From Robiginitomaculum sp. (GTDB lineage Bacteria; Pseudomonadota; Alphaproteobacteria; Caulobacterales; Maricaulaceae), in NCBI GenBank assembly GCA_016763315.1, contig JAESTZ010000101.1, positions 1 through 56,235 of the forward strand: DNA of 56,235 nucleotides, in the 5' to 3' direction. This document shows, piece after piece, positions 27,921-52,250 of the stretch (the first letter of the stretch is position 1; each line of letters opens with the position of its first letter). The notes beneath the pieces were generated by a model that was not told the DNA's origin, did not search any database, and worked only from the letters and a program-made list of their open reading frames with translations. The translations under genes and the position numbers were made by a program.

Positions 27921-29045
27921 TTAGATGTAAAAATCCTGTATAGCATTGATGATTTTATTTATATCATCTTTTGCTAAATAGGGGTGCATCGGTAAGGAAA
28001 TTACAGTTTTCGCTTTTTCTTCTGATACAGCTACTCCACCATCTCCAACAGGAAAGTCACTATAAGCGGTCTGCATATGGATTGGTTTTGGATAGTAAAC
28101 CGCAGTTGGAATGCCCCGATCTTTTAGGTAAGCGCCCAATTCTTCGCGATTTTCGACTTCAATAGTATATTGAGCCCAAACAGAAATTCCGCCGTCAATT
28201 ACTCGAGGTACTTGTTTTACTATATTGCCCAAACCGGCATTATACGCTCTGGCAATTTCATTACGTTTTTCAATTTCGTCGGCAAAAATTGCTAGTTTTT
28301 CAAGCAATATAGCTGCCTGAATTGTATCTAGCCGGCTGTTTACGCCAATGCGGACATTGTCGTATTTGTCAGTGCCTTTGCCATGTACGCGAATTGAATC
28401 AATTGCCGCGGCGGTCTCGTCGCAGTCGGTTAATACTGCGCCACCGTCGCCATAACAGCCAAGTGGTTTCGCTGGAAAAAAGCTGGTAGTTGCGGCGTCT
28501 GCCCAATGTAATGGGTGCTTACCGTGCAAAGTCGAACCAAAACCCTGTGCGCTATCGGCTATTAGCTTCATACCATATTTCTTGGCTATGGCTGAAATAA
28601 CTGGATAGTTTGCTGGTTGGCCGAATAGATCAACAGCGATAATTACTTTTGGGGTTAGCTCTCCTGCGGCTATAACCGCTTTTATCGCCGTTTCCAGGTT
28701 TTCCGGATCCATATTATAAGTATCTGGTAAAATATCGACAAATACCGGTGTGGCATTGATCCATGGTACAATCTCGCCGGTGGCGACAAATGTGAAACTT
28801 GGGCAAAATACAGCGTCACCCTCACCAATTCCCCAAGCCATCATCGGCAAAACCAGTGCATCCGTACCGTTGCCGCAGGCCAATACATGTTTGGCCTTGC
28901 CAAATTCAGCTAACTTTGCCTCTAATTCCTTAACTTGCGGACCCATGACATATTTGCCATCAGCCACTGCGTTTAAGACCGCAGAGTTTATTTTATCTTC
29001 TATTCTGCTACGTTGCGCCTGCAGATCAATAAACGCCATTCCCAT
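27921..29045 (-). CDS. wbpE: DegT/DnrJ/EryC1 aminotransferase, 3-oxo-glucuronate type
   Basis: PLP-dependent sugar aminotransferase, 374 residues. FIDLQAQRSRIEDKI near the start, GNGTDALVLPMMAW, PSFTFVATGEI, the PLP Lys in SFFPAKPLGCYGDGG and the YNAGL/AQYTIEV C-terminal pattern match WbpE/WlbC, which installs the 3-amino group on UDP-3-oxo-GlcNAcA using glutamate. The ATG at 29045 is preceded by AGGAAA at suitable distance; the next Met (29039) is also possible. Position between wbpB and wbpA supports the assignment. Cytosolic. Confidence 0.9.
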   Translation of the reverse strand: MGMAFIDLQAQRSRIEDKINSAVLNAVADGKYVMGPQVKELEAKLAEFGKAKHVLACGNGTDALVLPMMAWGIGEGDAVFCPSFTFVATGEIVPWINATPVFVDILPDTYNMDPENLETAIKAVIAAGELTPKVIIAVDLFGQPANYPVISAIAKKYGMKLIADSAQGFGSTLHGKHPLHWADAATTSFFPAKPLGCYGDGGAVLTDCDETAAAIDSIRVHGKGTDKYDNVRIGVNSRLDTIQAAILLEKLAIFADEIEKRNEIARAYNAGLGNIVKQVPRVIDGGISVWAQYTIEVENREELGAYLKDRGIPTAVYYPKPIHMQTAYSDFPVGDGGVAVSEEKAKTVISLPMHPYLAKDDINKIINAIQDFYI

Positions 29046-29095
29046 AATTCTATTTCCTTTTCCTAGTGGCCTTGCCACCATAACACTTGATTTAT

Positions 29096-30049
29096 CTAAC
29101 CTGCTGCGACTAATGCCCGCAACACGCGCAATGCTTCGTCAGCATCTGTTTTAGGTTTATTGCCGTCAATACAACATTGTACAAAATGACGACACTCTTC
29201 TTTTAGCGGTTCCGCATTGATGTTAAATTCAACGTATTCAACATCAGCTTTGTTCGGTGTTGGAGTGCCGTCTGTAGTGGATATAGTGTGTCGGTAAAGA
29301 GCCAGTTTTTTTCTTGGCTCAGGCTGACTGTCCTCAAAAACTAACATACCAGTTTCCATTACCACCACCAGTTTTTGTTCTTTGAAAGGGTGCAGCCATG
29401 AGGCAAAAATGTGAGCTTTGCGACCGGAGGCAAAATTCATATCGACCCGGAACATATCTTCAACACCCTCTGTGACCCAAGCTCCGCCGGATCCGGTAAC
29501 TGTTGTCGGCTCTTCATCAAGCAGAGCCAGCAGCATGGAGAAGTCATGTGGTGCAAGGCTCCAAAGAGCATTTTCTTCTAAACGGAACTTTCCAGTACTT
29601 AGGCGGTTGGAGTAGGCATAGCGAATATTACCGAATTCACCGCTATGAACCAATTGCAACATTTTCTGGAATGCCGGGTGATATTGTAATAAATGACCAA
29701 CCATTAAAACCCGGCCGTGCTTGACTGAACTGGCCGCCATGGCCTCGCCATCAGGAACTGTCAAAGCCAGCGGCTTTTCGACAAACACATGTTTGCCAGC
29801 TTCTATTCCTTGTATTGCCAATGTTTTATGCAACTCGGCTGGTGCTGCAATCGCTAGCGCTTTGATTCGCGGATCTGCCAAAGCTTGCTCCATGCTTATG
29901 GCGATAACTCCATGAGTGGTGGCGTGATTTTTGGCAGCCTTTTCATCGGGATCAACGATTGCTCGTAACGCTCCTAGTTGAGCAAAATTACGAGCAAGGT
30001 TTTTACCCCAATACCCACAGCCGACAACCGCAACAAATGCATTAGTCAT
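29096..30049 (-). CDS. wbpB: UDP-GlcNAcA 3-dehydrogenase (Gfo/Idh/MocA family)
   Basis: 317 residues. NAD-binding start VAVVGCGYWGKNLARNFAQLG, the HVFVEKPLAL motif with the family Lys-Pro, VGHLLQYHPAF and HDFSMLLALLDEEP fit WbpB/WlbA, which oxidises C3 of UDP-GlcNAcA and recycles its cofactor with 2-oxoglutarate. First gene of the wbpB-wbpE-wbpA group; about 50 bases separate it from wbpE. A second, more distant family member lies at 43734. The start codon is followed by a normal Rossmann beginning. Confidence 0.88.
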   Translation of the reverse strand: MTNAFVAVVGCGYWGKNLARNFAQLGALRAIVDPDEKAAKNHATTHGVIAISMEQALADPRIKALAIAAPAELHKTLAIQGIEAGKHVFVEKPLALTVPDGEAMAASSVKHGRVLMVGHLLQYHPAFQKMLQLVHSGEFGNIRYAYSNRLSTGKFRLEENALWSLAPHDFSMLLALLDEEPTTVTGSGGAWVTEGVEDMFRVDMNFASGRKAHIFASWLHPFKEQKLVVVMETGMLVFEDSQPEPRKKLALYRHTISTTDGTPTPNKADVEYVEFNINAEPLKEECRHFVQCCIDGNKPKTDADEALRVLRALVAAG

Positions 30050-32342: not shown

Positions 32343-33116
32343 ATGAGCAACATATCTTCTGACGCGCAAATTGGTGAAAATTGTTTTTTATCTAGAACCG
32401 CTGTAATTCACGAGAATGTAATTCTCGGGGATAATTGCAAAGTTGACGATTATTGTGTTTTGGGTGATTCTCGACCTCTCAATGGCAACAAGCTGGTAAT
32501 TGGACAAAATGCTATAATAAGGTCTCATTCTGTAATGTACGGAGGATCAACATTCGGCTCTGATTTGAGTACGGGGCATCATTGTTTAGTTCGGGAAGGC
32601 ATATCGGCTGGAATTAATTTGCAAATTGGCAGTTACAACTCCTTAGAGGGCGATACTATTATTGGTGATTTTGTCAGATTTCATAGCAGTGTTAATATTG
32701 GGCGCGGAAGTCAAATTGGTGACTTAGTTTGGATTTTCCCTAATGTCGTTTTAACTAATGACCCTATTCCTCCCTCCGGATTGCAGCGTGGTGTTACTTT
32801 AGGTGATGGGGTGGTTATATGTGCAATGGCGATCATCCTTCCAGGTGCCGTTTTGGGTGTCGGAGCATTTGTTGCAGCATGCGCGAAGGTTGGGGGAGAA
32901 ATTCCAAAGGGTGCCTTTGTCGTTGGTGAGAAAGGTTTGGTTAGAGGGGACGTGAGGTTGGTAAGGGATTTTACTACTAAAAAACAACACCCTTGGATGA
33001 ATCATTTTTTTGATTATTATCCTCAAGCCGCGCAAGAGAAAATTCGCGAAATTCGACAAACTCTTGCCGATCATTTTTGTGAGCAAGACGAAAAACGCCG
33101 CTCACCTATTGATTAA
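32343..33116 (+). CDS. Left-handed beta-helix (hexapeptide) acyltransferase
   Basis: 257 residues with many hexapeptide turns (IGENCFL, VILGDNCKV, LVIGQNAII, VTLGDGVVI, AVLGVGAFV), so a trimeric acyl- or acetyltransferase using acetyl-CoA or acyl-ACP. A possible catalytic His lies in STGHHCLVREG. The last 50 residues are helical (HPWMNHFFDYYPQAAQEKI). Target sugar unknown; the gene is flanked by the epimerase fragment and a glycosyltransferase. AT-richer than core genes, as are its neighbours. Confidence 0.75.
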   Translation: MSNISSDAQIGENCFLSRTAVIHENVILGDNCKVDDYCVLGDSRPLNGNKLVIGQNAIIRSHSVMYGGSTFGSDLSTGHHCLVREGISAGINLQIGSYNSLEGDTIIGDFVRFHSSVNIGRGSQIGDLVWIFPNVVLTNDPIPPSGLQRGVTLGDGVVICAMAIILPGAVLGVGAFVAACAKVGGEIPKGAFVVGEKGLVRGDVRLVRDFTTKKQHPWMNHFFDYYPQAAQEKIREIRQTLADHFCEQDEKRRSPID

Positions 33117-35017: not shown

Positions 35018-35797
35018 ATGCAATCAATAATGCCTTTTACTGACAACTTTAGAGACTTCGCTTCTAAAAGCCAGTGGGTCGACTCTTTGAATATAGACAG
35101 TTTAAATAAAGTCTACCTTTCAGCGGATATTGATTGGGCCCCTGATTATGCAGTTGAAGTAATGCTTGCGGAGATTGAAAAAAGAAATTTGAAAATGACG
35201 GTTTTTGCTACACATAAGTCGTCATTACTTTTGCAACCACAACCGAATATTGAAATTGGCGTACACCCAGATTATACTCGCACGGTTGAGCAAAAAGATC
35301 TTAAATATCAGCTATCATTTTTGTTGGATATTTTTCCTGATGCGCTTGGCGTTAGGAGCCATCGCAATTTTTTTGGTCAAAATACTTGTGATTTTGCCAA
35401 TGAATTTCAGTTAAAATATGAAGCTAGCAATATACAATGGGGTATGCCATTTCTTTGCCCGCATCGTGATTACAATCAAATGGTTCGCATTCCGTATTTT
35501 TGGGAAGATGGTATTCATTGCGATATGAACTTACCATGGACTTTGGATCAATTACCAATCCATTGCGCAGGGTTGAAGGTAATTAACTTTCACCCAATGG
35601 CTTTATATTTAAATTCACCTACTGAAAGTCATCGACGTAGTGTTGTCGGTAATTATTCAGATTTAACTATTGCGCCATTTTCTGTATTAGAGAAACAGAG
35701 ATTCCACGGCACTGGAGCATTTACTTATTTTAAGATGATCCTTGATATGCTCGTAGAACAAAGAGTTAATTGTGATTTAATGTCTGAACTTATTTGA
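35018..35797 (+). CDS. NodB-fold polysaccharide deacetylase-like protein (WbmS-like)
   Basis: 259 residues. Motifs in order match a degenerate NodB homology domain: SADIDWAPDY (metal Asp pair), TVFATHKS, EIGVHPDYT, GVRSHRNF and KVINFHPMALYL. Related proteins in Bordetella-type O-antigen loci are called WbmS. Deacetylation of an N-acetyl sugar is possible, but the canonical H-x-x-x-H pair is altered, so another role cannot be excluded. It overlaps the 3' end of the convergent wbpI gene by 21 bases. Confidence 0.65.
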   Translation: MQSIMPFTDNFRDFASKSQWVDSLNIDSLNKVYLSADIDWAPDYAVEVMLAEIEKRNLKMTVFATHKSSLLLQPQPNIEIGVHPDYTRTVEQKDLKYQLSFLLDIFPDALGVRSHRNFFGQNTCDFANEFQLKYEASNIQWGMPFLCPHRDYNQMVRIPYFWEDGIHCDMNLPWTLDQLPIHCAGLKVINFHPMALYLNSPTESHRRSVVGNYSDLTIAPFSVLEKQRFHGTGAFTYFKMILDMLVEQRVNCDLMSELI

Positions 35798-36879: not shown

Positions 36880-38802
36880 TTAGTCTTTGACAAGATTTTT
36901 GTATTTGGACTGTTGGTCGTGAAATTTTTGAAACCAGAGTTCTAGACTGAGCAGACCCCATGTTTTTCTGGAAAATTGCCCGCCTTGATCGAAATTTGCC
37001 AAAATATGGTCGGAACGCATAAATGGCCGTGAACGAGCAGCTTCTGTACGAAAGGTATCTTGGACAAAATCGCTAAGATCGGACTGGTACCATTCTTTTA
37101 ATGGAACAGGAAAACCCATTTTGTCCCGGCGCTCAACAATTGGTTTGGGCAAAATGTCTTTATATGTTGATTTTAATAATTGTTTGAGTTTTCCGCCTTC
37201 AAACTTTATTTTATTGGGAACTGTAGCCATAAACTCGACCAAATTGTGATCAAGAAACGGAACTCTAGATTCGATACCATGCGCCATGCTCATTCGATCT
37301 TCGATCTGCAGCAATGCTGGCAATAGACGTTTGAAATCAAAATGGGTCATACGATCAAAGTCTTGTCCCTGACCATCAGGAAAGGCCGTTTGGCTATGGA
37401 ATGCTTCATCAAAGGCATTACGAGCGTGACCTTTATCTAGTACACCCCAGTCGACTTCATCTTGCATATCTGTGGAGCGATCGACAAGGCGAAAATATCG
37501 CGAAGGCAAGTCTTCAAATAGGCCTTTGGCAAAGAATTGCCCCATCAATGGCTTGTATTCTTTAAGCACGGTAAGGTTGGGAACAATATCGCCAAATGAA
37601 ATCGGGAACTTTCCCGTATTCAGCTCTCCATCAAGCGCCCCCAGCAGCAGCCGTTCAAGATATCCGACCATGTATCTGGCATACCCGCCAAATATCTCAT
37701 CGCCACCTTGCCCCCCCAGAACTACTTTCACATGCTTGCTAGCCAATTGAGAAACCATGTATTGCGGAAAGGATCCCGGGCCGGCAATCGGGTGGTCAAG
37801 GTGGTAAATTATTTTATCAATATTTTGGATAAAATCTGCCGAGGAAATATCAATACTATGCATTTGCAAATCAGATTGGTCGGCAACCATTTGCGCAAAA
37901 TGACTTTCATCATAACCAGGGTGGCAGGTGAATTTACCGTGAAATGTTTGAGTGTTCTGACTATCTTGCTGTTTGGCCATCATCGCCACCAGGCTTGAAT
38001 CAATACCGCCGGACAAATAACTACCGATAGGCACGTCAGCACGCAAGTGAACGTTTATCGAGTCCGACATCAATTCCCGTATACGCTGTTGGCAACTATC
38101 CAAAGTCATTGAATCATCGTGGTCGAATACAACATCCCAATATTTGTGTATTTTACTGTTGCCATTTTGCACACTCATTATGTGTCCAGGCATTAGCTGC
38201 CTTACCCCATCAAACATGGTGAGATCTGTCATTGGTTGTTGAAAAGTAATATATTCAGTCAGTGCCAATGGGTTCGTGGTTATTGCCGGAAGGAAAGGTA
38301 ACAGAGCCTTTATCTCGGAAGCAAATACCAATTGTTCGCCAAGCAAGGCATAATAAAGTGGCTTGATGCCGAACCGGTCTCTGGCCAATAATAGTTTTTT
38401 CTTTTTCTCGTCCCACAACGCAAAGGCAAACATCCCCCGTAAGTGATCAACACATTGATCGCCCCACTGTTCATAAGCGGCGAAAATACATTCGGTGTCG
38501 GAATTGGTTTGAAAACCCCACTTGTTGGACAGCTGTTCTCTTAACTCAATATAATTGTATATTTCGCCATTAAAAGTCAAACTGGTGCCGTTTTGTGCGT
38601 GCATGGGTTGTGCCCCCATGTCCGATAAATCAATGATGGTAAGACGTTGATGGGCAAGACCGACTTCATTGCTAGCATTGGCCCAACGGCCTTCGCCATC
38701 GGGGCCTCGATGTTTTATAAGTTCCCCTAGAACGTTGACTTTATGTTCTATGGAGGGGATCGGCTCTCCTAATAAATTAAGTATTCCTGCCATTCCACAC
38801 AT
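36880..38802 (-). CDS. asnB: Glutamine-hydrolysing asparagine synthase-like amidotransferase
   Basis: 640 residues. Cys2 after the initiator Met is the glutaminase nucleophile (MCGMAGILN), followed by HRGPDGEG, LAHQRLTIIDLS, TFNGEIYNY and SDTECIFAAYEQWG of the class II amidotransferase domain. The synthetase half has the pyrophosphate loop SGGIDSSLVA and RVPFLDHNLVEF. In polysaccharide loci such enzymes (WbpS/WbpG-like) often amidate uronic acids; here the ManNAc3NAcA or glucuronate residues are candidate targets (inference). First gene of a two-gene unit with wbpI, divergent from the methyltransferase. Confidence 0.9.
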   Translation of the reverse strand: MCGMAGILNLLGEPIPSIEHKVNVLGELIKHRGPDGEGRWANASNEVGLAHQRLTIIDLSDMGAQPMHAQNGTSLTFNGEIYNYIELREQLSNKWGFQTNSDTECIFAAYEQWGDQCVDHLRGMFAFALWDEKKKKLLLARDRFGIKPLYYALLGEQLVFASEIKALLPFLPAITTNPLALTEYITFQQPMTDLTMFDGVRQLMPGHIMSVQNGNSKIHKYWDVVFDHDDSMTLDSCQQRIRELMSDSINVHLRADVPIGSYLSGGIDSSLVAMMAKQQDSQNTQTFHGKFTCHPGYDESHFAQMVADQSDLQMHSIDISSADFIQNIDKIIYHLDHPIAGPGSFPQYMVSQLASKHVKVVLGGQGGDEIFGGYARYMVGYLERLLLGALDGELNTGKFPISFGDIVPNLTVLKEYKPLMGQFFAKGLFEDLPSRYFRLVDRSTDMQDEVDWGVLDKGHARNAFDEAFHSQTAFPDGQGQDFDRMTHFDFKRLLPALLQIEDRMSMAHGIESRVPFLDHNLVEFMATVPNKIKFEGGKLKQLLKSTYKDILPKPIVERRDKMGFPVPLKEWYQSDLSDFVQDTFRTEAARSRPFMRSDHILANFDQGGQFSRKTWGLLSLELWFQKFHDQQSKYKNLVKD

Positions 38803-40704: not shown

Positions 40705-41010
40705 ATGTATTATAATAATAGGTCTGATGTGACGCCTCTTATGCACGCCTGCATGACCGGAAATTTAGATGCGGTAATATCTGAGATAAAATCTGGTGGG
40801 GATGTCAATGCACGTAACAAAAATGGCACTACCTGCCTGATGTATGCTAAGACGGCTGCGTTTGGCGATGGTGATTTGCGTATTATGGAAATACTTGTAC
40901 AGCAAGGTGCAAAGATAAACGCAATAGACAATATGGAGAAAAATGCTTTGGATTATGCAATTGAAAATGCTGATAAAGTTATTGGCTTTCTTAAGGGGAA
41001 TAGCAAATGA
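40705..41010 (+). CDS. Ankyrin-repeat protein coupled to the formyltransferase
   Basis: 101 residues, about three ankyrin repeats: DVTPLMHACMTGNLDAVISEI, NARNKNGTTCLMYAKTAA...IMEILVQQGA, and NAIDNMEKNALDYAIENADKV. There is no signal peptide. GGAAG lies six bases before the ATG. The stop overlaps the next ATG (ATGA), so it is translated together with the sugar N-formyltransferase. The N-formyltransferase QdtF of Providencia alcalifaciens carries a fused ankyrin domain that binds nucleotide sugar; this gene may supply that module as a separate subunit (inference). Confidence 0.75.
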   Translation: MYYNNRSDVTPLMHACMTGNLDAVISEIKSGGDVNARNKNGTTCLMYAKTAAFGDGDLRIMEILVQQGAKINAIDNMEKNALDYAIENADKVIGFLKGNSK

Positions 41011-41672
41011 AAATATGCCTTCTTACTTACGACCATCCGCATAAAAAGACCGCTCAAGTTTATTTTGGTCTTCGCGAATCTGGGCGGCATGAAATTGATT
41101 TTATGATAATGCCTTTCGTAAAACGTAAACCACGCGAAGTACTTGTTGATCATAGACCAGGGTCACTAGAAGGATGCTCTGTGCAAAGCATTTCAATGCG
41201 GGATGGAAATAAAGTTCACTTATACCAAGATTGGGAGTCTCAAATTGATAAATATGATTACTTCATAATTGGTGGTTCTAATTTAATAGACCAGGGTTTT
41301 GCAAATTCTGGTAAAATACTTAATTGTCACGCAGGTTTAATTCCCGCAACCAGAGGGTTGGATACTTTCCAATGGGACATTTTAAATGGTCTTCGACTTG
41401 GTAATACGCTTCATATTATTGACGAACATACGGATGCTGGTGAAATCATTTATCATTGCGAAACACCGGTTTTTCTTGAAGACCATATATTAACCCTTGC
41501 AGAGCGACATTATCAAATGGAAATTTGGATGCTGCAAAATTTTGATGATTTGTTGAAAAGACCCAAAGTAAATGAGTATAAAACCAATCCTGCAACAAGG
41601 CGTATGAATATCGCTACTGAGGCGATTATGTTAAAGGCGTTTGACGAGTACAAAGCCAAATTTGCTGTTTGA
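41007..41672 (+). CDS. Sugar N-formyltransferase
   Basis: 221 residues of the formyltransferase fold (N10-formyl-THF as donor). The catalytic triad is visible: N106 and H108 in ILNCHAGLIPATRG and D143 in DEHTDAGEIIYH. It lacks the C-terminal OB domain of methionyl-tRNA formyltransferase, and its place in a polysaccharide locus points to an amino-sugar substrate such as Qui3N, QuiN or perosamine. No matching 4-amino-sugar synthase is in the window. Overlaps the ankyrin gene by four bases. Confidence 0.82.
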   Translation: MKICLLTYDHPHKKTAQVYFGLRESGRHEIDFMIMPFVKRKPREVLVDHRPGSLEGCSVQSISMRDGNKVHLYQDWESQIDKYDYFIIGGSNLIDQGFANSGKILNCHAGLIPATRGLDTFQWDILNGLRLGNTLHIIDEHTDAGEIIYHCETPVFLEDHILTLAERHYQMEIWMLQNFDDLLKRPKVNEYKTNPATRRMNIATEAIMLKAFDEYKAKFAV

Positions 41673-43733: not shown

Positions 43734-44642
43734 TTATTGCAGACACTCAACAGCAATTTCCAAGTTACGTAAACCTTCTTCACCAGATACTGGCATTGGT
43801 TCATTTTTTTCAAGTGCGCTTAAGAATGCCATAAGTTCAGCCTTTAAAGGTTCATTCCCTGGTACCCACAAATTTCCAACGCGCACGGTTCCGTCGGCTT
43901 GATAGTCAAAGTGCTCGGTTACTTGACGTGTAATCAAGTCGGCCGTGTAGAATTTTTCTTGTGTTGCTACTTGAATTGTACGTGATTTGAAAGGAGTCAA
44001 CCAATTGGTATTCACATGAGCCAGAACATTATTTTCAGTTCTAAACTGTAGTAAGGCAATATCTTCACGATCAGCGCGGATGCTCGATGTTTGTGCCTGT
44101 ACTTCGACAATATCAGAGCCGCTAAGCCAGCGAATAATATCAATATCGTGAACTGCAAGGTCGATAATGACACCCACATCCGACATGCGCGGTGGAAACG
44201 GTCCAACCCGGGTGATACCTATAGAGATAATGTCTTGGCCTTTAAGGGCATCACGTAAAGTTGCAACAGCTGGGTTAAAGCGCTCGATCTGGCCGATCAT
44301 AACTTTCGTTCCGTGCTCTTTGGCGGCCTTAAGTATTTCCTGCCCGTCTTTAACTGTTAGGGCGATCGGTTTTTCTATCAACAGGTGTATGCCGCGGGCA
44401 ATGCACTCTAAAGCCACTTCTTTATGCCTAGCTGTGGAAACGGCAATGCTTAAGGCCTCTACACCTAAATCAAGTAAATCACTCAAACCTGTGAAGTGCG
44501 GGCAATTACATGCCTCAGCTACTGTTTTGGCTTGCTCAGAATTGGCGTCAACAACACCGATCAATTCGGCGTTTTCCAATTCGCTGTAAACCCGTGCATG
44601 ATTGCGCCCCATGGATCCAACACCCACTACTGCAACTTTCAT
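43734..44642 (-). CDS. Gfo/Idh/MocA-family oxidoreductase
   Basis: 302 residues. NAD-binding start MKVAVVGVGSMGRNHARVY, family LLIEKPIALTVKDGQE, IGQIERFNPAV and the AVHDIDIIRWL motif with catalytic His. The second half (LAHVNTNWLTPFKSRTIQV) matches nucleotide-sugar 3-dehydrogenases acting on UDP-GlcNAc in archaea and some bacteria. With an aminotransferase and an acyltransferase such an enzyme would lead to a 3-acylamido sugar; the LpxD-like enzyme at 45864 is the nearest acyltransferase. Substrate not proved. Confidence 0.75.
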   Translation of the reverse strand: MKVAVVGVGSMGRNHARVYSELENAELIGVVDANSEQAKTVAEACNCPHFTGLSDLLDLGVEALSIAVSTARHKEVALECIARGIHLLIEKPIALTVKDGQEILKAAKEHGTKVMIGQIERFNPAVATLRDALKGQDIISIGITRVGPFPPRMSDVGVIIDLAVHDIDIIRWLSGSDIVEVQAQTSSIRADREDIALLQFRTENNVLAHVNTNWLTPFKSRTIQVATQEKFYTADLITRQVTEHFDYQADGTVRVGNLWVPGNEPLKAELMAFLSALEKNEPMPVSGEEGLRNLEIAVECLQ

Positions 44643-44861
44643 TATCGTATCCTATATCTTGATATGTTTTCAATATTCCGCTGCTTTATCAGGTTCTATA
44701 TTCTGTAGCAAATAAAAAACAGTGTTAGATAAAAATATCACAAAAAGACAAATAACTATAATAGGTGCTCTATAGGAAAAAACTTGGCTTTGCACGGGTT
44801 GTCTGGTCGTCATAGTCGTGGAATATATATAATGCGTACGTTTATTTAAGGTGTGAATAGC

Positions 44862-45632
44862 ATGAGTAAACCATCATTTTCCATTTCAGGTTATTGCTCT
44901 ATAATAGAGACGTCTTTGGCTGCAGGTTATCGCGTCACTCCCTTTAGTTCGGCTCTATCAACCCCTGAGCCCGCTATTATCCTTCGGCATGATATTGATC
45001 TGTCATTGCCTTGTGCCATTGAGGTGGCGAGAGCAGAAGCTGAAATGGGGGTTTCGGCTACTTATTTTATTATGATGAGCAGTGATTATTACAATCCGTT
45101 TAGCGCTATTGGCCGGCATCAGGTTCAGCAAATTGCCGCATTGGGTCATGAAATTGGCTTGCACTGGGATTCATCTAACTACCCTGAATCTGATGATGCT
45201 GTGCATAGGCAGTTTAGAAATGAGTTGGCGCATTTAGGTGATATTGTTGGTGAGGAAATTGTTTCGGCATCACAGCACATTCCAACTGATACACCGTTGT
45301 TCGATGTTGAGTCCTTGGTTGAGAACGAAGCTTATTCGCAAAAATTTCGTAATCGCTTTACTTATGTTTCCGATAGTTCGATGCAATGGCGCGAGACAAC
45401 TCCTTTGGATTTGATCAAACTTGGCAAGAGTATCCATTTTCTTTCGCACCCGATTTGGTGGGCCGGTGATGGGGACGACCAGGCAGAAAAATTAAGGCGA
45501 ATGTTTATCGCAAGATGCGATGAAATGGAAACTACATTGACCGAATTTACCGAGTATCTTTATGACGTTCTTTCTAAACGTGATCAGTTCGATGCGAATT
45601 TTATAAAGAAAAAAGGCAAGATGAATAAATAA
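44862..45632 (+). CDS. NodB-fold polysaccharide deacetylase-like protein
   Basis: 256 residues from the ATG at 44862 (a GTG three codons earlier is less likely). Motifs: IILRHDIDLSLPCA (metal-binding Asp pair), ATYFIMMSSDYYNPF, LGHEIGLHWDSSNY and HFLSHPIWWAGDGDDQ. The pattern is that of O-antigen-associated NodB relatives in which the second metal-binding motif is altered, so hydrolase activity is likely but not certain. It differs clearly from the protein at 35018. Probably trims an N-acetyl or similar group during glycan maturation. Confidence 0.68.
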   Translation: MSKPSFSISGYCSIIETSLAAGYRVTPFSSALSTPEPAIILRHDIDLSLPCAIEVARAEAEMGVSATYFIMMSSDYYNPFSAIGRHQVQQIAALGHEIGLHWDSSNYPESDDAVHRQFRNELAHLGDIVGEEIVSASQHIPTDTPLFDVESLVENEAYSQKFRNRFTYVSDSSMQWRETTPLDLIKLGKSIHFLSHPIWWAGDGDDQAEKLRRMFIARCDEMETTLTEFTEYLYDVLSKRDQFDANFIKKKGKMNK

Positions 45633-45863: not shown

Positions 45864-46760
45864 ATGTCTGTTACAGCTAAAGCAATTGCTGATTTTATAG
45901 GGTTACCTTTATCTAAAAAAGCAAATGTAGATATTTCTAGCGTTTGTACATTAGGGCACTTGCAATCGAACTGTCTTACATTTCTGTCTATTCCCACAGA
46001 AGCTCGTATAGCTGCAATTGGAGCGCGAGATGATATTCTAGTGTTGGTTCCTGAAGATACGACTATATCATATCCATTTCTACATATTAAGTGTGTAAAC
46101 CCTCGTTTATTTTTATCACGTGTTGTTGCTGAATTCTTTTATCCATCTACGCTTCATGAGGTTTCTGAGAATTCTATTATTCATCCAAGTGCAAAAATTG
46201 GTAATAATGTCCATATCGGTCATTTTACTATCATAGCGGAGAATGTAGTTATAGGCGATGATACTTATATTGGAAATAATGTAGAAATTTTTCGAAATGT
46301 AAAAATCGGCAAGCATTGCCACATTAAAAGTCAGGGCGTGATAGGTCAACAAGGCTTTGGTTTTGAAAAGGACGAGTTCCAAAACTATCAGCGTTTACCA
46401 CATATCGGGTCAGTAATTTTGAAAGATTTTATTGAGTTAGGAGTGCATTCAACCATTGCTGCGGGCACAATATATCCGACACATATAGGTTCCTATACTA
46501 AAATCGATGATCATGCTCATATCGGCCATAATTGTCAGATCGGCGAGAACAATATTATTGCGGGTGGGGTTGTTGTCTCTGGCAGTATTACTACGAAGAA
46601 TCATGTTTGGTTCGGGCCTAACAGTTCCATGATGCAGGGTCTGACTTTTAATGAAGGAAGTATAATTGGTGTTGGTGCGGTTATGTATACCAATGCAAAA
46701 GCGGACACATCTTATAGTGCCCGCCCTGCTTTACCTGTAATGAAGCCTCGTGATAACTGA
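45864..46760 (+). CDS. LpxD-like acyl-ACP-dependent N-acyltransferase
   Basis: 298 residues. An N-terminal uridine-binding-like domain (1-95) is followed by left-handed beta-helix repeats and the LpxD landmarks: GVIGQQGFGFEKDEFQNYQR, PHIGSVILKDFIELG, then IDDHAHIGHNCQIG, where H222 aligns with the catalytic His of LpxD, and IIAGGVVVSGS. LpxD moves a 3-hydroxyacyl chain from acyl carrier protein to a UDP-glucosamine derivative. The true lpxD normally sits with fabZ/lpxA, so this copy is probably a specialised one for the polysaccharide. The ribosome site is a doubled AGGAAGT. An ACP, an acyl ligase and a reductase lie directly downstream on the other strand. Confidence 0.82.
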   Translation: MSVTAKAIADFIGLPLSKKANVDISSVCTLGHLQSNCLTFLSIPTEARIAAIGARDDILVLVPEDTTISYPFLHIKCVNPRLFLSRVVAEFFYPSTLHEVSENSIIHPSAKIGNNVHIGHFTIIAENVVIGDDTYIGNNVEIFRNVKIGKHCHIKSQGVIGQQGFGFEKDEFQNYQRLPHIGSVILKDFIELGVHSTIAAGTIYPTHIGSYTKIDDHAHIGHNCQIGENNIIAGGVVVSGSITTKNHVWFGPNSSMMQGLTFNEGSIIGVGAVMYTNAKADTSYSARPALPVMKPRDN

Positions 46761-46809
46761 CCCGGGTAAGTTGTTTTGTTGTGGTGAGCGGGCTTTATTA
46801 AAATAATTC

Positions 46810-47550
46810 TTATGCTGTTGATCCAGCATCCACGGTAAGTACAGTTCCTGTGATTCTATCACCACCCTTGCCTAAAAGAAACGCAACTGTTTCGGCTACA
46901 TCACTTGGCCTGGCAAACAGTTTCATAGCGCTGCGCCGGCGAATGGAGTCTAGTTTATCGCCTTCTAGTCCGGTTGTCATTTCCGTTTCCATATACCCCG
47001 GCGCCACTACATTTACTGTCATCCCAATTTTGCCGATCTCGCGGGATAATGATCTAGAGAAACCTTCCATTGCAGATTTGGTTGCGCCATATACTGATAG
47101 GCCAGAATAGCCTGTAGAGCCAATAATTGATCCGATATTTACAATTCGTCCCTTGTGACCAGATAGCATCATCATTCGAGTAAGGTACTTAGTTAATAGA
47201 ATTGGAGCGGTGATATTGATAGCAATCATTCGTTCAATATCAGTTTCGTGCATAGTTCCTAAAATGCCGTCTGTTCCGATAGCGGCATTATTAATTAAAC
47301 TAAAAATAGTAGGTTTATTGTCTAGTTTTGTTGACTGGACAATGTCTTTACAGAGTTGGAAAATATCACGAGTTTTTTCTAAATCAAATTTAAGGAATTC
47401 CAAATTATCATTGGCTTGTGTCAAGTCTTTGATTTCATCGGTTTCGGTGCGACTTACGGCGACAACATAAAATCCGTCATGAAGAAGTTTTTGAACTATC
47501 GCAAAACCCAATCCACGGCCTGCGCCAGTAACAATGACCGTTTTTCTCAT
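46810..47550 (-). CDS. FabG-like short-chain dehydrogenase/reductase
   Basis: 246 residues. TGAGRGLGFAIVQKLL (cofactor loop), LINNAAIGTDG, the catalytic set Ser in NIGSIIGSTGYSG and Y-x-x-x-K in SVYGATKSAMEGF, and a C-terminus GDRITGTVLTVDAGS typical for 3-oxoacyl-ACP reductases. It begins on the last base of the acyl ligase stop (TAATG), so it is translationally coupled to it. A role in reducing an ACP-bound 3-oxoacyl group, which the LpxD-like enzyme could then use, is the simplest reading (inference). Confidence 0.85.
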   Translation of the reverse strand: MRKTVIVTGAGRGLGFAIVQKLLHDGFYVVAVSRTETDEIKDLTQANDNLEFLKFDLEKTRDIFQLCKDIVQSTKLDNKPTIFSLINNAAIGTDGILGTMHETDIERMIAINITAPILLTKYLTRMMMLSGHKGRIVNIGSIIGSTGYSGLSVYGATKSAMEGFSRSLSREIGKIGMTVNVVAPGYMETEMTTGLEGDKLDSIRRRSAMKLFARPSDVAETVAFLLGKGGDRITGTVLTVDAGSTA

Positions 47551-48872
47551 TATCTTACAACCTTTCCATTTTCCGATATTTTAATTTTGTCTACAAACCG
47601 ATAGGCAATTGGTCGTTGATATGGTTCAAGTTTGTTTTTACAGGTTTGTATCAGTTCTTTTTGTAAGGCCATTTGATTTTGATTTTCACTTGCAATGATT
47701 TCTGCTACCACAAGCTCACCTGTTAACGGGCTTTTTTTACCATAAACACGCGACAAACTAACCCCATCAACACCGTTCAGAATGATTTCAATGGTTTCAG
47801 GAGAAACTTTATCTCCTCCAACATTAATAATTCCAGACAACCGGCCAAGAAAATATACCCGATCTTGTTTAACTTGCACACGGTCGCCGGTATTTACATA
47901 TTTATCTTCATCAACAAACGTAGAGCCATCACCAATATAAGACCCGGAAACTAGTTTATTTTGTATGTATAATATATCGTCAACAATTTTTATCTTAATG
48001 TCGTTAAAGCCATCGTCTAAGAACGATGTTGGAAATCCGGGTAGTCCGTCCGATACTGAAAAACCTGCGCCGGCCTCTGTGGAAGCGTATATGTGTCTGA
48101 TTTTTGCTTCTGGATAGTAAACCTTAAGTGTTTTTAATATAGATGCGTCGGCTATTTCTCCGCCTAATGTTATAGAGAGTAATTTTAATTTTTTTGCCCC
48201 ATCCGTCATTAAAATCTTCCGCCATAAAGTAGGTGTTGCAGATAGCGCATTTACTTTTTCTTGAGCGAATAGTTCCAATTTTTTACATAGCGGTAAATCT
48301 AATGCAGGAGAGACTAGGATGCTTTGGCCAGCAAGCGCTTGCAAAATAACCTGCATGCCGGCAAAACGGTAATTATCATAAAGCTGTCCCCAGACAAAAG
48401 TTGAAGCCTTCTTGGCGATCCTGACTGTTCTAGTTAGTGAAGCTAAGCTATGGGGCACCAGTTTTGGTCTATCTGTTGTTCCGGAGGTTGCAAGTAACCA
48501 AATGGTGTCAAAGGTAGGCGATTTCATAGTGCCAGTAGGTTTGCTAAGTAATGTTTCTAGAGAGTCATGAGCTCCAAAGATATCATTATCGGCGTACAGT
48601 TTTTTAGTGCCCGCTTGTTGCATAAGTGATTGAGCAACAGGTTTGGATAGAGTTGGAGATAATAGTAATAATGTTTCCACATTACTATCGACTTTATTTA
48701 GTGCTTGAATTAGATCGGCGCAGGATTTAAATGCGATGGCTATGTTTGTGTTTAATTTTGTTGATGTATCTTGGCACTGCTCTTGAAAAAAAACATCGCG
48801 ATGTAATTGGTGCTTGTCCGTTACTACAATTTTTTGATTTTTAGATGCCGCGTCTATGAATTTGGAAATCAT
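47550..48872 (-). CDS. AMP-dependent acyl ligase (acyl-ACP/peptidyl-carrier loading type)
   Basis: 440 residues, shorter than CoA ligases. ANL-family motifs: LATSGTTDRPKLVPHS (phosphate loop), HIYASTEAG, YVNTGDRVQ, GRLSGIINVGGDKVSPETIE, and the final catalytic Lys in SENGKVVR just before the stop. It lies four bases after the ACP gene and overlaps the FabG-like gene, so it most likely loads an acid onto that ACP. The substrate (short 3-hydroxy acid, amino acid or fatty acid) is not readable. Confidence 0.85.
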   Translation of the reverse strand: MISKFIDAASKNQKIVVTDKHQLHRDVFFQEQCQDTSTKLNTNIAIAFKSCADLIQALNKVDSNVETLLLLSPTLSKPVAQSLMQQAGTKKLYADNDIFGAHDSLETLLSKPTGTMKSPTFDTIWLLATSGTTDRPKLVPHSLASLTRTVRIAKKASTFVWGQLYDNYRFAGMQVILQALAGQSILVSPALDLPLCKKLELFAQEKVNALSATPTLWRKILMTDGAKKLKLLSITLGGEIADASILKTLKVYYPEAKIRHIYASTEAGAGFSVSDGLPGFPTSFLDDGFNDIKIKIVDDILYIQNKLVSGSYIGDGSTFVDEDKYVNTGDRVQVKQDRVYFLGRLSGIINVGGDKVSPETIEIILNGVDGVSLSRVYGKKSPLTGELVVAEIIASENQNQMALQKELIQTCKNKLEPYQRPIAYRFVDKIKISENGKVVR

Positions 48873-48876
48873 AACA

Positions 48877-49137
48877 TTATTTAGGTTGATTAGCGTGATA
48901 GAAATCTATGAATTCTGCAAAAGTTTGAGGATAGAAAGCTTCTTCAGAGGAAACATAGGGGTCAAAGCCTAAAGAAAACTCCAGGGAAGCGACCAGGGTG
49001 GCAAAGCCTAAAGAGTCAAGGCCGGTTTCTAAAAGAATAGTATTTTCTGTAAGGGGTGAAATGATTTTCATTTCGTGCATTTCTGCAACTTGCAGGAGGC
49101 TTTCAGTGATATGATTTTTTATTTTTTCACGTGTCAT
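48877..49137 (-). CDS. Acyl carrier protein
   Basis: 86 residues from the ATG at 49137, with the phosphopantetheine Ser42 in the motif LLETGLDSLGFATLV. Acidic and helical, as normal for ACP. An 18-codon upstream extension is open but hydrophobic and unlikely. The acyl ligase starts four bases later and the FabG-like gene follows, forming a dedicated three-gene cassette separate from the core fatty acid acpP. Confidence 0.9.
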   Translation of the reverse strand: MTREKIKNHITESLLQVAEMHEMKIISPLTENTILLETGLDSLGFATLVASLEFSLGFDPYVSSEEAFYPQTFAEFIDFYHANQPK

Positions 49138-49328
49138 CTTCAGTCTTCCTATTTTAAGGCATCGAGTATATAGAATTAATAACAAATGCAAGAGCTATTT
49201 AGTGTTACCAACTATAGTAAATATTTTTGCTCTGCGGAGTTAGGTTCATTACGAAGTAATAATTTTTAGGTAGGCAAGCGGGGCGAATATTCATAATAAT
49301 AGCGAAATATTGTTGGCGATTTATATCC

Positions 49329-49848
49329 TCAAACCCGTTCAATAATATTTCCAACTTCATCAACTTTTGCAACTATTTTGGCCGGATTTCCGACAACCAA
49401 GCAATGCTCTGGCACGTCTTTTGTTACTACAGCACCAGAGCCAACCATTGCCCATTTGCCGATTGTTACACCGGGAAGTAATATTGCTCCAGCGCCGATG
49501 GCGTCTCAGTAGCATACCTTAACCCCCCCGCAAATTCCAGTCACCGGAGTTCTTCAAGGAGCCATCAGGAGCAATAGCTCGCGGAAGTTTATCATTTAGA
49601 ACAGCAACATGCGGGTCAATAAATACACCACCTTCAACTATTGATCCTTGATAAATGCTGGCATTATTTTGAATTTTACAATTACGCCCAATTAAAACGT
49701 CCTTGTCGACAAACGCGCTCTTACCTATTGAGGTTCCTACCCCTATATTGGCGCCGCAACGGATTTGTACCCAGTTCCATATCTGGACATCATCTCCGAC
49801 TATGGCGAAGTTTTCCACTTCGGCTGTGTCATGTATGTGCGTTGTCAT
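49329..49848 (-). pseudogene. WbpD/WlbB-like acetyltransferase with two disabling lesions
   Basis: A hexapeptide acetyltransferase starts at 49848 (MTTHIHDTAEVENFAIVGDD) behind a GGGGGGC ribosome site, and stops early after GDWNLRGG. Deleting one G from the G7 run at 49523-49529 lets it go on as VKVCY, but there a TGA stands where family members have a codon before AIGAGA. After it the frame reads [34 protein letters not shown] and [19 protein letters not shown] to a stop at 49329. So one frameshift plus one nonsense change. It lies 17 bases after the wzt-type gene on the same strand. The intact wbpD at 51681 may have taken over. Confidence 0.85.
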
Positions 49849-49865
49849 AGCGCCCCCCAGGTTAA

Positions 49866-50639
49866 TTATTGTTTCCACGGCAATGGATAAGTACCGGCAT
49901 AAACTTGTTCCTTAATAGCTAAACCTTCGTCGACACCAGTAAATGACACCATGTGTCCGTCTTCAAGAACTACTACTTTATTGCACCATTCACGGATTAA
50001 ACTATCAGCGTGAGTGGCTAATACCAGAATCTTTTCGTCTGTCAAATAAGCCTCAATTCGAGTCTGTGCCCGCTCAATGAATCTACTGTCTCCAGCTGAG
50101 ATCCACTCGTCCATCAGAACTATTTCGGCTGGAATAGCAGTAGCAATTCCCAAGGCAAGGCGGGCAACCATGCCGCTGGAATAGGTTCTGACCGGTTGGT
50201 TGATGGCTTCGCCTAATTCAGTAAAGTCGACGATGTCTCCTAATTTTAACATCATCTGTTCTCGGCTCATTTGCATGCGTAGGCCGCGCAGGAAAATATT
50301 GTTAATACCCGAGGCATTCATATCCATACCAAGGGTAATATTAATTAAGGAAACTTGTTGTCCGCTTCTGATTATGCGGCCACTTTCAGGTTCGTAAATG
50401 CCGTTCAAGGCGCGAAGTAAGGTTGTTTTTCCCGAACCGTTACGTCCGATAAGTCCGATACGATCCCCTTTGCGTGCCGTGAACTTGATATCAATAAGCG
50501 CTCTTTTATAATTTCGTGCCGGTGATTTGCGATGCAGACCAAGCATTTTTAACAAAGACACCCGAAACGAGCGACCATGATCATCCAAATGAAGCGGGAA
50601 GCTGACACAAGCGTTATCTACTTTTAGAAATGGCATCAT
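49866..50639 (-). CDS. wzt: Polysaccharide export ABC transporter, ATP-binding protein
   Basis: 257 residues. Walker A GRNGSGKTT from residue 65, YSSGMVARL signature near 153-161, and Walker B EIVLMDEW near 172-179, with the D-loop SAGDSRF and switch His in LATHADSL. The N-terminal extension with SLLKMLGLHRK is typical of Wzt/KpsT/TagH-type exporters. It is short, without the C-terminal carbohydrate-binding domain of O-antigen Wzt proteins such as those of E. coli O8/O9a, so chain recognition must lie elsewhere. It overlaps no gene but follows the permease by seven bases. Confidence 0.92.
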   Translation of the reverse strand: MMPFLKVDNACVSFPLHLDDHGRSFRVSLLKMLGLHRKSPARNYKRALIDIKFTARKGDRIGLIGRNGSGKTTLLRALNGIYEPESGRIIRSGQQVSLINITLGMDMNASGINNIFLRGLRMQMSREQMMLKLGDIVDFTELGEAINQPVRTYSSGMVARLALGIATAIPAEIVLMDEWISAGDSRFIERAQTRIEAYLTDEKILVLATHADSLIREWCNKVVVLEDGHMVSFTGVDEGLAIKEQVYAGTYPLPWKQ

Positions 50640-51680: not shown

Positions 51681-52250
51681 ATGTCGTCAAAATCTGATTA
51701 TTTTTGCCACGAAAGTTCGTATGTAGACGAGGGTGCAGTAATTGGTAAAGGAACAAAGATTTGGCATTTTTGTCATATTTTAACTGATACTATTATTGGG
51801 AAAAATTGCTCATTAGGACAAAATGTAATGGCTGGGCCTGGGGTTGTTATTGGTGATGATTGTAAAATTCAAAACAATGTATCCTTGTATAAAGGTGTGA
51901 TTTTGGAAGACGGTGTGTTTTGTGGTCCGTCTTGTGTGTTTACCAATGTGACCACACCGCGATCCGAAGTGAATCGGCAAAGTGAATATGCAATAACTTT
52001 GGTACGTAAAGGGGTGACCATTGGTGCTAATGCTACCATAGTTTGCGGCCATGAATTGGGTGAGTATTGTTTTATCGCTGCCGGTGCCGTGGTAACAAAA
52101 AACGTCAAACCGCATGCGGTAATGGCCGGTGTTCCAGCCAAGCAAATCGGTTGGGTTGCTCATAGTGGTGAAATGCTGCGTGATGATATGGTCTGTCCTA
52201 GAACTGGCGACAAGTACGCGGTCGTTGATGAGAAATTGGTGCTATCATAA
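51681..52250 (+). CDS. wbpD: UDP-2-acetamido-3-amino-glucuronate N-acetyltransferase
   Basis: 189 residues of left-handed beta-helix fold: IGKGTKIWHFCHI, GQNVMAGPGVVIGDDCKIQNN, FCGPSCVFTNVTTPRSEV, VTIGANATIVCG, AAGAVVTKNVKPHAVMAGVP and CPRTGDKYAV. These blocks match WbpD/WlbB, which acetylates the 3-amino group from acetyl-CoA (step four to UDP-ManNAc3NAcA). dusA starts 24 bases downstream, so it may share the transcript although functionally unrelated. Confidence 0.92.
   Translation: MSSKSDYFCHESSYVDEGAVIGKGTKIWHFCHILTDTIIGKNCSLGQNVMAGPGVVIGDDCKIQNNVSLYKGVILEDGVFCGPSCVFTNVTTPRSEVNRQSEYAITLVRKGVTIGANATIVCGHELGEYCFIAAGAVVTKNVKPHAVMAGVPAKQIGWVAHSGEMLRDDMVCPRTGDKYAVVDEKLVLS

Follow-up and report, generated by a model that had tools for sequence, protein, structure and literature searches.

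A probable glycan-type relative of the thiomarinol and mupirocin priming cassettes in a Robiginitomaculum surface-polysaccharide locus

Thiomarinol and mupirocin synthesis is primed by a small gene cassette, comprising an adenylation enzyme, a short-chain reductase (SDR) and a free acyl carrier protein (ACP), which according to the accessible text yields 4-hydroxybutanoyl-ACP or 3-hydroxypropionyl-ACP (MupQ/MupS/MacpD in mupirocin). The product feeds a polyketide synthase. In the original starter-unit paper the thiomarinol enzymes are said to use succinyl-coenzyme A (CoA) through a bis-CoA/ACP thioester. The same three kinds of gene are also in print for glycan loci, likened here to our locus by their descriptions only: group II flagellar glycosylation islands of Aeromonas contain genes for an ACP, a 3-oxoacyl-ACP reductase and an AMP-ligase (orf1-3; that is, ACP, reductase and synthetase, with luxE and luxC also present; PMC7874193), flagellar glycosylation islands of Enterobacteriaceae contain the same three kinds (PMC4875605), and in both cases the accessible text describes fatty-acid genes and assigns no product. 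In a further system, wfpC-G of Flavobacterium psychrophilum, a dedicated ACP and a ketoacyl reductase are proposed to feed a sugar N-acyltransferase (3,5-dihydroxyhexanoyl on Qui2NAc4N), but ketoacyl synthases are used and, in the accessible text, no ligase is named (PMC6519341). Here we analyze a 56,235-nucleotide stretch of Robiginitomaculum sp. DNA (contig JAESTZ010000101.1, positions 1 to 56,235, forward strand; hereafter the window), a large surface-polysaccharide cluster with a guanine-plus-cytosine content (GC) of 43.0% in a genome of 2.52 Mb, 122 contigs and 92% completeness, and we focus on three minus-strand genes for an ACP, a ligase and an SDR. Our best overall explanation, to which we assign a probability of roughly 0.6, is that this trio is a glycan-type relative of the thiomarinol/mupirocin priming cassette and would supply 4-hydroxybutanoyl-ACP for N-acylation of an amino sugar.

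A reading of the window made from sequence alone, without database searches (the sequence-only reading), had placed four genes here, the trio and an LpxD homologue, and had regarded the full set as not previously described. The island reports show that the ACP, reductase and AMP-ligase gene kinds are already in print. A link between such a cassette and 4-hydroxybutanoyl was not found in print: the literature searched, with most subscription papers outside its scope, yielded no gene for making the 4-hydroxybutanoyl donor of surface sugars, and the terms "4-hydroxybutanoyl" and "acyl carrier protein" occurred together in the mupirocin paper only. What is new here would be a relative of a priming cassette turned to glycan decoration.

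The genes themselves are as the sequence-only reading had them: open reading frames (ORFs) and sequence confirm the places of all four genes, the carrier-protein serine, the ligase-terminal lysine and the SDR start on the ligase stop. The dedicated ACP (48877..49137, minus strand; 86 aa) has an ATG start, with an alternative TTG start at 49191 open too, and carries its phosphopantetheine serine, Ser42, in LETGLDSLGF. It matches Pfam PF00550 weakly (E 0.016, under cut-off). An alignment of 28 cassette ACPs (that of the window and 27 others) contains 12 invariant columns, which include D41 and S42, and a D/T-Ser-hydrophobic motif is present in 77 of 77 cassette ACPs. The structure model made from the 28-sequence alignment has a confident four-helix fold (mean predicted local distance difference test (pLDDT) 95.0), in which Ser42 starts the second helix, and its PDB matches, among those listed, are nearly all carrier proteins. 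The AMP-forming acyl-ACP ligase, or adenylation enzyme (47550..48872, minus strand; 440 aa; PF00501 7e-16, PF13193 1.4e-9), starts 4 bases after the ACP gene and ends in SENGKVVR, with the Lys of that sequence at residue 437 of 440; Lys437 is present in 73 of 74 aligned ligases, that of plasmid pTML1 (see below) included, and the remaining sequence has a gap. The type I motif of the ligase, RFAG, lies at residues 169-172 and occurs in 67 of 74 ligases. The SDR (46810..47550, minus strand; 246 aa; PF00106 2.9e-47), a proposed thioester reductase of MupS/TmlS type, has an ATG that overlaps the ligase stop (TAATG) and the tetrad Asn112-Ser141-Tyr154-Lys158, and Asn-Ser-Tyr-Lys is found in 74 of 74 SDRs, again with pTML1 included. 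A promoter and terminator scan gave signals not above shuffled controls.

The results of a search for relatives establish that the trio is not peculiar to the window. A scan of genome contigs with the single window ligase sequence gave no relative, and a ligase profile gave 122, of which the best 80 were kept for locus counts; all were picked by the ligase profile alone, and two loci already in the query profile were left out of independent counts. ACP, ligase and SDR occur in this order on one strand in 73 of the 80 loci (71 of 78 without those two). Of the seven loci without the full trio, five have the ligase near a contig end (three on the SDR side, two on the ACP side), and two contain lone ligases for which neither partner was found. 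The distance matrices of the three proteins correlate at 0.65, 0.69 and 0.74 across 74 loci, values each reached in 0 of 500 permutations. Four further AMP-ligases matched by the same profile in the same DNA have neither partner gene beside them, and this, together with the 73 of 80 ligase-picked loci, indicates that the three genes occur together more than by chance. The ligase is sparsely distributed, occurring in 5 of 137 genomes of the family (E 1e-20; own genome included, two others at 41% identity and two weaker at 30%) and in 14 of 385 genomes of the class (E 1e-40, profile of three; own genome included), which marks it as an accessory gene; by record titles, its relatives span Alpha-, Beta- and Gammaproteobacteria, Chlorobi, Planctomycetes, Campylobacterota, Balneolota and others. 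We conclude that ACP, ligase and reductase constitute a real, widespread, co-inherited cassette.

A tblastn search of the ligase against plasmids led to pTML1 of Pseudoalteromonas sp. SANK 73390, a strain named with the thiomarinol pathway in the accessible text of PMC10098928. On pTML1 the order is ligase-SDR-ACP, followed by a polyketide synthase gene. We take pTML1 to be the thiomarinol plasmid and its cassette genes to be those for TmlQ, TmlS and TacpD. The window and pTML1 proteins share 30% identity for the ligase (122 bits), 37% for the SDR (152 bits) and 37% over 62 aa for the ACP (28.9 bits). Among the PDB matches listed for the ACP model, the first is the solution structure of mupirocin MacpD (6tg5), with the highest TM-score normalized by query length (0.74). 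The window thus resembles the thiomarinol/mupirocin system in having an adenylation enzyme, an SDR and a free ACP in one cluster, with homologous ligase and SDR and with intact catalytic residues (ACP Ser42, ligase Lys437, SDR Asn-Ser-Tyr-Lys), but differs from it in lying in a polysaccharide locus, in the order ACP-ligase-SDR and in having a type I ligase, where pTML1 has a type II ligase. In a ligase tree the window enzyme and an Idiomarina enzyme fall in a large type I group, with the ligase of locus L018 sister to that of the window (support 0.999); by plain identity, locus L046 ranks first.

The Idiomarina enzyme connects the cassette with a glycan of described structure. The O-polysaccharide of Idiomarina abyssalis KMM 227T contains, according to the accessible text, 2-O-sulfate-3-N-(4-hydroxybutanoyl)-3,6-dideoxy-D-glucose (Kokoulin 2015), an N-(4-hydroxybutanoyl)-Qui3N. 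The KMM 227 cassette sits within a dTDP-3-amino-sugar operon, and its locus (L042) contains an FdtA-family gene (PF05523, 1.2e-50), ACP, ligase, SDR, a QdtC-like acyltransferase (1e-54 against PDB QdtC) and a DegT aminotransferase, with a sulfotransferase following the aminotransferase after one intervening gene; these genes fit that sugar, supplying isomerase, aminotransferase, acyltransferase and sulfotransferase. The KMM 227 genome has a single cassette ligase, and among 19 genomes of the genus no other has the ligase at E 1e-40. An Aliivibrio metagenome-assembled genome (L056) has the same order from FdtA-like gene to aminotransferase. N-(4-hydroxybutanoyl) groups are reported, in sources accessible in part, on Fuc3N in Pseudoalteromonas and on pseudaminic acid (Pse), and the latter bears on the PseH-type neighbors described next, because Pse is the sugar of the PseH step.

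The neighbors of the cassette in other genomes point in the same direction. In a survey of 71 loci (7 without an upstream and 9 without a downstream gene under the rule used), 64 have a co-directional gene directly upstream of the ACP gene, and of these 64 genes PseH (TIGR03585, E up to 1e-8) is matched by 22 and hexapeptide acyltransferases by 16; the tallies are per family, may overlap and do not separate the matches above the TIGR03585 cut-off. Downstream genes are mixed (8 of 61 hexapeptide, one locus having been dropped from 62). Many gammaproteobacterial loci resemble pseudaminic acid/flagellin loci, with PseB-, PseC-, PseG- and PseI-like neighbors and a flagellin, and in Azospirillum brasilense Sp 7 the annotation places a plasmid-borne trio between pseI and flagellin. 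Upstream acyltransferases and Pse-type neighbors suggest that the cassette frequently serves an acyltransferase acting on the amino group of an NDP-amino sugar. Since the set is co-inherited, with the trio in 73 of 80 loci, and often stands beside sugar acyltransferases, the trio is likely to be an own-ACP acyl supply for an amino sugar, as the sequence-only reading had suggested.

According to the mechanism that we favor, the ligase would act on a dicarboxylic acyl-CoA, most likely succinyl-CoA, adenylating its free carboxylate and loading it on the ACP; the SDR would reduce the CoA-thioester end to an alcohol, leaving 4-hydroxybutanoyl-ACP; and a sugar N-acyltransferase of the same polysaccharide locus would move the group to the amine of an NDP-amino sugar, probably a 3-amino sugar. 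Substrate, order of reactions, identity of the window acyl group and acceptor sugar are all inferred. For the acyl group, 4-hydroxybutanoyl is the candidate that we favor, 3-hydroxypropanoyl and 3-hydroxybutanoyl (or another 3-hydroxyacyl group) are each unlikely, and any other group is somewhat less likely still. If so, a cassette recognizable by sequence would let genomes predict the 4-hydroxybutanoyl-type groups reported on Qui3N, Fuc3N and Pse, could explain the unassigned "fatty acid" genes of flagellar glycosylation islands, and would join polyketide starter-unit supply to glycan decoration.

Several observations weigh against this reading. The pTML1 ligase is of type II, with DHIGG in place of RFAG, and forms a subgroup separate from the window ligase, so that carrying the pTML1 substrate over to the window is uncertain; in the tree it joins two ligases from the window's family (support 0.983), and the loci of these two are ordered ACP-SDR-ligase. 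Given the type I/type II split, the related biochemistry in print is that of a sister group and the glycan structure is that of one type I strain; that is, the glycan bridge to 4-hydroxybutanoyl consists, in the accessible sources, of one strain only. PF05523 presumably covers both FdtA and QdtA types, and the L042 genes therefore fit Fuc3N as well as Qui3N. The structural match of the ACP to MacpD 6tg5 has an E value of 0.011, no match falls below 0.001, other carrier proteins follow close behind, and by sequence the match to MacpD is weak (E 0.28). A beta-ketoacyl reductase role for the SDR is possible, because its best NCBIfam model is 3-oxoacyl-ACP reductase and its tetrad is common to SDRs. 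Finally, neither the window nor its 92% complete genome contains an FdtA-family gene, and at the place immediately upstream of the ACP gene, where a partner usually stands, the window has a broken gene. From the lack of an FdtA-family gene it follows that the acceptor in the window is not Qui3N or Fuc3N made by the FdtA route, and Qui3N made by an FdtA-family enzyme was rejected as acceptor.

The two loci with the order ACP-SDR-ligase, in two genomes of the window's family (L011, 94-2625, and L012, 1360-3664), are type II cassettes, and the gene after the L012 cassette has, by eye, a GNAT-like look.

Three acyltransferase genes of the window are candidates for taking the group from the ACP. 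The first, a tentative choice that we put slightly ahead of the others, is a QdtC-like sugar N-acyltransferase (32343..33116, plus strand; QdtC 2.2e-39), which would rival the LpxD-like enzyme as user of the cassette product. It is the window's closest relative of the cassette-adjoining acyltransferases in L042 and L056 (37-39%, 168-169 bits). QdtC itself (PDB 3FS8) belongs to the family shared by those two acyltransferases and the window protein but differs, to our knowledge, in acting on dTDP-Qui3N with acetyl-CoA. The second, just behind it and itself not probable, is the LpxD-like hexapeptide-repeat N-acyltransferase next to the trio (45864..46760, plus strand; 298 aa). The third and more doubtful possibility is that the partner has been lost: the broken gene directly upstream of the ACP gene (49340..49878, minus strand; ORF 49519-49878) is a hexapeptide acyltransferase gene split between two frames, the second of which is interrupted by a stop. 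Among seven proteins tried, its N-terminal part is closest to the window hexapeptide acetyltransferase at 51681 (37%, 67 bits), and its C-terminal part is closest to the hexapeptide gene 5751-6389 of L018 (54% over 56 aa, 55 bits; next 52). With this acyltransferase in pieces the original partner may be lost, unless the lesions are assembly errors.

These candidates bear directly on the best-surviving alternative, which is compatible with the 4-hydroxybutanoyl explanation and to which we give slightly less than even odds: that the LpxD-like gene and its neighbor trio are unrelated units standing side by side by chance, such that the trio feeds the QdtC-like enzyme or has lost its partner, and the LpxD-like enzyme works with a nearby deacetylase-like protein and another acyl donor. 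The presence of the QdtC-like gene and the damage to the usual upstream acyltransferase favor it, as does gene orientation. The LpxD-like gene is adjacent to the trio and keeps the His of IGHNCQIG, as the sequence-only reading had noted for what it called a back-to-back homologue, but it lies outside the operon, on the opposite strand and convergent, tail to tail with the SDR gene. However, the genes are close neighbors, with 49 bases between stops, and the GC values of the LpxD-like gene (38.4%), the ligase (38.5%) and the ACP (38.3%) are alike and below that of the window, which fits a joint arrival; the SDR and the deacetylase-like gene are higher (41.4% and 42.6%).

The distribution of LpxD-like genes bears on the same point. 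A six-frame search of 83 other loci, reaching up to 10 kb to either side of the ligase (a shorter stretch where a contig ended, and 12 kb for two loci on plasmids), found no LpxD-like gene of this kind in any other trio locus; against a profile of polysaccharide-type LpxD-like proteins the highest score outside the window was 66 bits, versus 468 for the window gene. Among the 385 genomes of the class, an LpxD-like orthologue occurs in the own genome only (E 1e-36), and in the family there are matches in 7 of 137 genomes, own included (E 1e-30), of which four are canonical lpxD genes beside fabZ/lpxA and two (L122, from the window's genus, and L126, from its family) are of polysaccharide type. 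A third polysaccharide-type relative lies on a plasmid of Sphingomonas hankookensis (L121). A tree joins the window protein with L121, L122 and L126 weakly (0.51), and no trio was found within the sequence examined around these three genes. Because the gene is in no other trio locus and its relatives' loci contain no trio, we rejected the LpxD-like protein as a fixed member of the set: of the conserved linkage that the sequence-only reading had expected for four genes, the trio is linked across genomes and the LpxD-like gene is not.

The LpxD-like protein is equally distinct from the lipid A enzyme. With it LpxD shares the hexapeptide-repeat family and the catalytic His (His222 of IGHNCQIG aligns with catalytic His239 of E. 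coli, and Phe41 is kept, as Phe40). The score against NF002060, a model of the broad LpxD subfamily, is above the cut-off (222.7 bits versus 207), but that against TIGR01853, the lipid A equivalog, is below it (170.8 versus 242.5), and identity is 27% to the host's canonical LpxD and 28% to E. coli LpxD. Only the replacement of Asn44 by Ile stands out, at a site that is Asn or Asp in six canonical sequences; Tyr47 varies among canonical LpxDs as well, and loss of E. coli His276 was dropped as an argument because the host's own canonical enzyme carries Asn at that position. Beyond the last shared proline the C-terminal tail has 7 residues, versus 17-32 in nine relatives. In E. coli LpxD the C-terminal tail docks ACP. 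A single-sequence structure model reached a mean pLDDT of 34.4 and was not used. The host's canonical lpxD (341 aa) stands with fabZ, lpxA and lpxB on another contig, outside the window, and the possibility that the LpxD-like gene is the host's sole, lipid A lpxD, which the sequence-only reading had named as fatal to its proposal, was therefore rejected.

The more consistent companion of the LpxD-like gene is a polysaccharide-deacetylase-like gene (44853..45632, plus strand; RHDID...GHEIGLH; PF01522 only E 0.049). Its homologue in L121 directly follows the LpxD-like gene (a gap of 19 bases with the annotated start, an overlap if an earlier start is used), and homologues lie 6 kb from the LpxD-like gene in L122 and 3 kb from it in L126. 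Since L121, L122 and L126 share the pair and show no trio in the sequence examined, we regard the deacetylase-like gene as the best partner for the LpxD-like gene; use of the cassette ACP by the LpxD-like enzyme as well is possible but unproven. In the class, 20 of 385 genomes have a homologue of the deacetylase-like gene, as do 7 of 137 genomes in the family (own counted in both). In 20 deacetylase-like loci, a survey outside which three further homologues fall, a hexapeptide gene lies within about 2 kb in 10 and at 6 kb in one, and the other 9 have none; only one of these hexapeptide genes (L162) scores in the LpxD-like range, so that ordinary hexapeptide enzymes are the commoner companions of the deacetylase-like gene. 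The genes of L156 and L160 run deacetylase-like, Gfo/Idh, hexapeptide, DegT, which we take to be a 2,3-diamino-uronic acid operon (WlbABC), and the window contains the same kinds of part in scattered form (Gfo/Idh at 29096, DegT at 27921, hexapeptide at 51681). Joining the two units, the LpxC-LpxD logic of lipid A might be repeated on a surface sugar: the deacetylase-like protein would unmask an amino group on a UDP-2,3-diamino sugar, for the LpxD-like enzyme to re-acylate with 4-hydroxybutanoyl from a private ACP cassette of the widespread glycan branch of the mupirocin/thiomarinol cassettes. We consider this combination unlikely.

Two observations concern the relatives alone. In L122 (8447-10344, minus strand) a 334-aa LpxD-like ORF that starts with TTG overlaps a 3-hydroxyacyl-CoA dehydrogenase gene at the end of the latter, which might be another route for supplying hydroxyacyl groups to an LpxD-like enzyme. 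In L121 (8125-12460) hisH and an AglZ/HisF2 acetamidino-modification gene belong to the same run of genes as the LpxD-like gene.

The L122 overlap favors a second alternative, the model of the sequence-only reading: that the ligase loads a 3-oxo acid such as acetoacetate, that the FabG-like SDR converts it to (R)-3-hydroxyacyl-ACP, and that the LpxD-like enzyme N-acylates a UDP-amino sugar. The SDR is related to FabG, although its score against the FabG model TIGR01830 is 175.3 bits, under the cut-off of 297.75; the LpxD-like gene adjoins the trio with its catalytic His kept; and N-(3-hydroxybutyryl) is reported, in a source accessible in part, on a 2,3-diamino-uronic acid of Plesiomonas O51 (PMC3210612), a sugar of the kind that the window seems to make. 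However, the LpxD-like gene is missing from every other trio locus examined, and 4-hydroxybutanoyl or 3-hydroxypropionyl is what both lines of evidence with a known product suggest. In addition, 3-hydroxybutanoyl groups have been explained in print: on Fuc3N and Qui3N by the transferase FdhC/QdhC, in a text that does not contain the words "acyl carrier" in its accessible part (PMC4869667), and on Fuc3N, Qui3N, Pse and Leg by a transferase or short gene modules, including Acinetobacter psaGH/lgaHI and qhbC, which hydroxyacylate the same kinds of amino sugar with, in the accessible texts, no ACP named (PMC4869667, PMC9676051). We thus regard 3-hydroxyacyl chemistry as improbable, and CoA-thioester reduction to an omega-hydroxyacyl group as the likelier role of the SDR.

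A third alternative, of similarly low probability, is that the trio makes 3-hydroxypropanoyl-ACP from malonyl-CoA, as in mupirocin, for sugar acylation; MupQ/MupS/MacpD provide the precedent, and MacpD heads the PDB matches of the ACP model, but the only glycan-linked case met, in a source accessible in part, has 4-hydroxybutanoyl. The last, a DltA/DltC-type system loading D-alanine or another amino acid with the SDR unrelated, is recommended by the pairing of AMP-ligase with carrier protein and by a glycine carrier protein and DltC among the ACP model's PDB matches, but was rejected as highly improbable on model scores, the ligase reaching 42.5 bits against the DltA model NF003417 (cut-off 476) and being much closer to the pTML1 ligase (122 bits), and the SDR being conserved in 73 of 80 loci.

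The 4-hydroxybutanoyl explanation calls for an amino-sugar acceptor, and the window contains further genes of amino-sugar type. A DegT-family sugar aminotransferase (27921..29081, minus strand; NCBIfam matches below cut-off; 35% to the L042 aminotransferase) is the presumed maker of a 3-amino-sugar amine, and the adjoining Gfo/Idh-type dehydrogenase (29096..30049, minus strand; NF040723 130.5 bits, cut-off 450), presumably of WlbA/WbpB type, would oxidize the sugar at C3. A second Gfo/Idh dehydrogenase is UDP-GlcNAc 3-dehydrogenase-like (43734..44642, minus strand; 297 bits, below the cut-off of 450), and the hexapeptide acetyltransferase at 51681..52250 (plus strand; NeuD/VioB model 79.9 bits, below cut-off) is one that we take to be WbpD-like. 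Other genes of the window suggest additional decoration of the polymer: a WbmS-like polysaccharide deacetylase (35018-35797, plus strand; PF22537, 1.6e-33), which with the gene at 44853 makes two deacetylase-like genes of different families; a sugar N-formyltransferase-like gene (41007-41672, plus strand; PF00551), a possible source of a further N-acyl group; and an asparagine-synthase-type amidotransferase (36880-38802, minus strand; TIGR01536 above cut-off), which perhaps amidates a uronic acid. Finally, a window gene (23842-25146, plus strand) and a gene of L112 (26-1228, plus strand), from two genomes of one genus and both inside polysaccharide loci, are similar by eye and have a phage-tail-like look.

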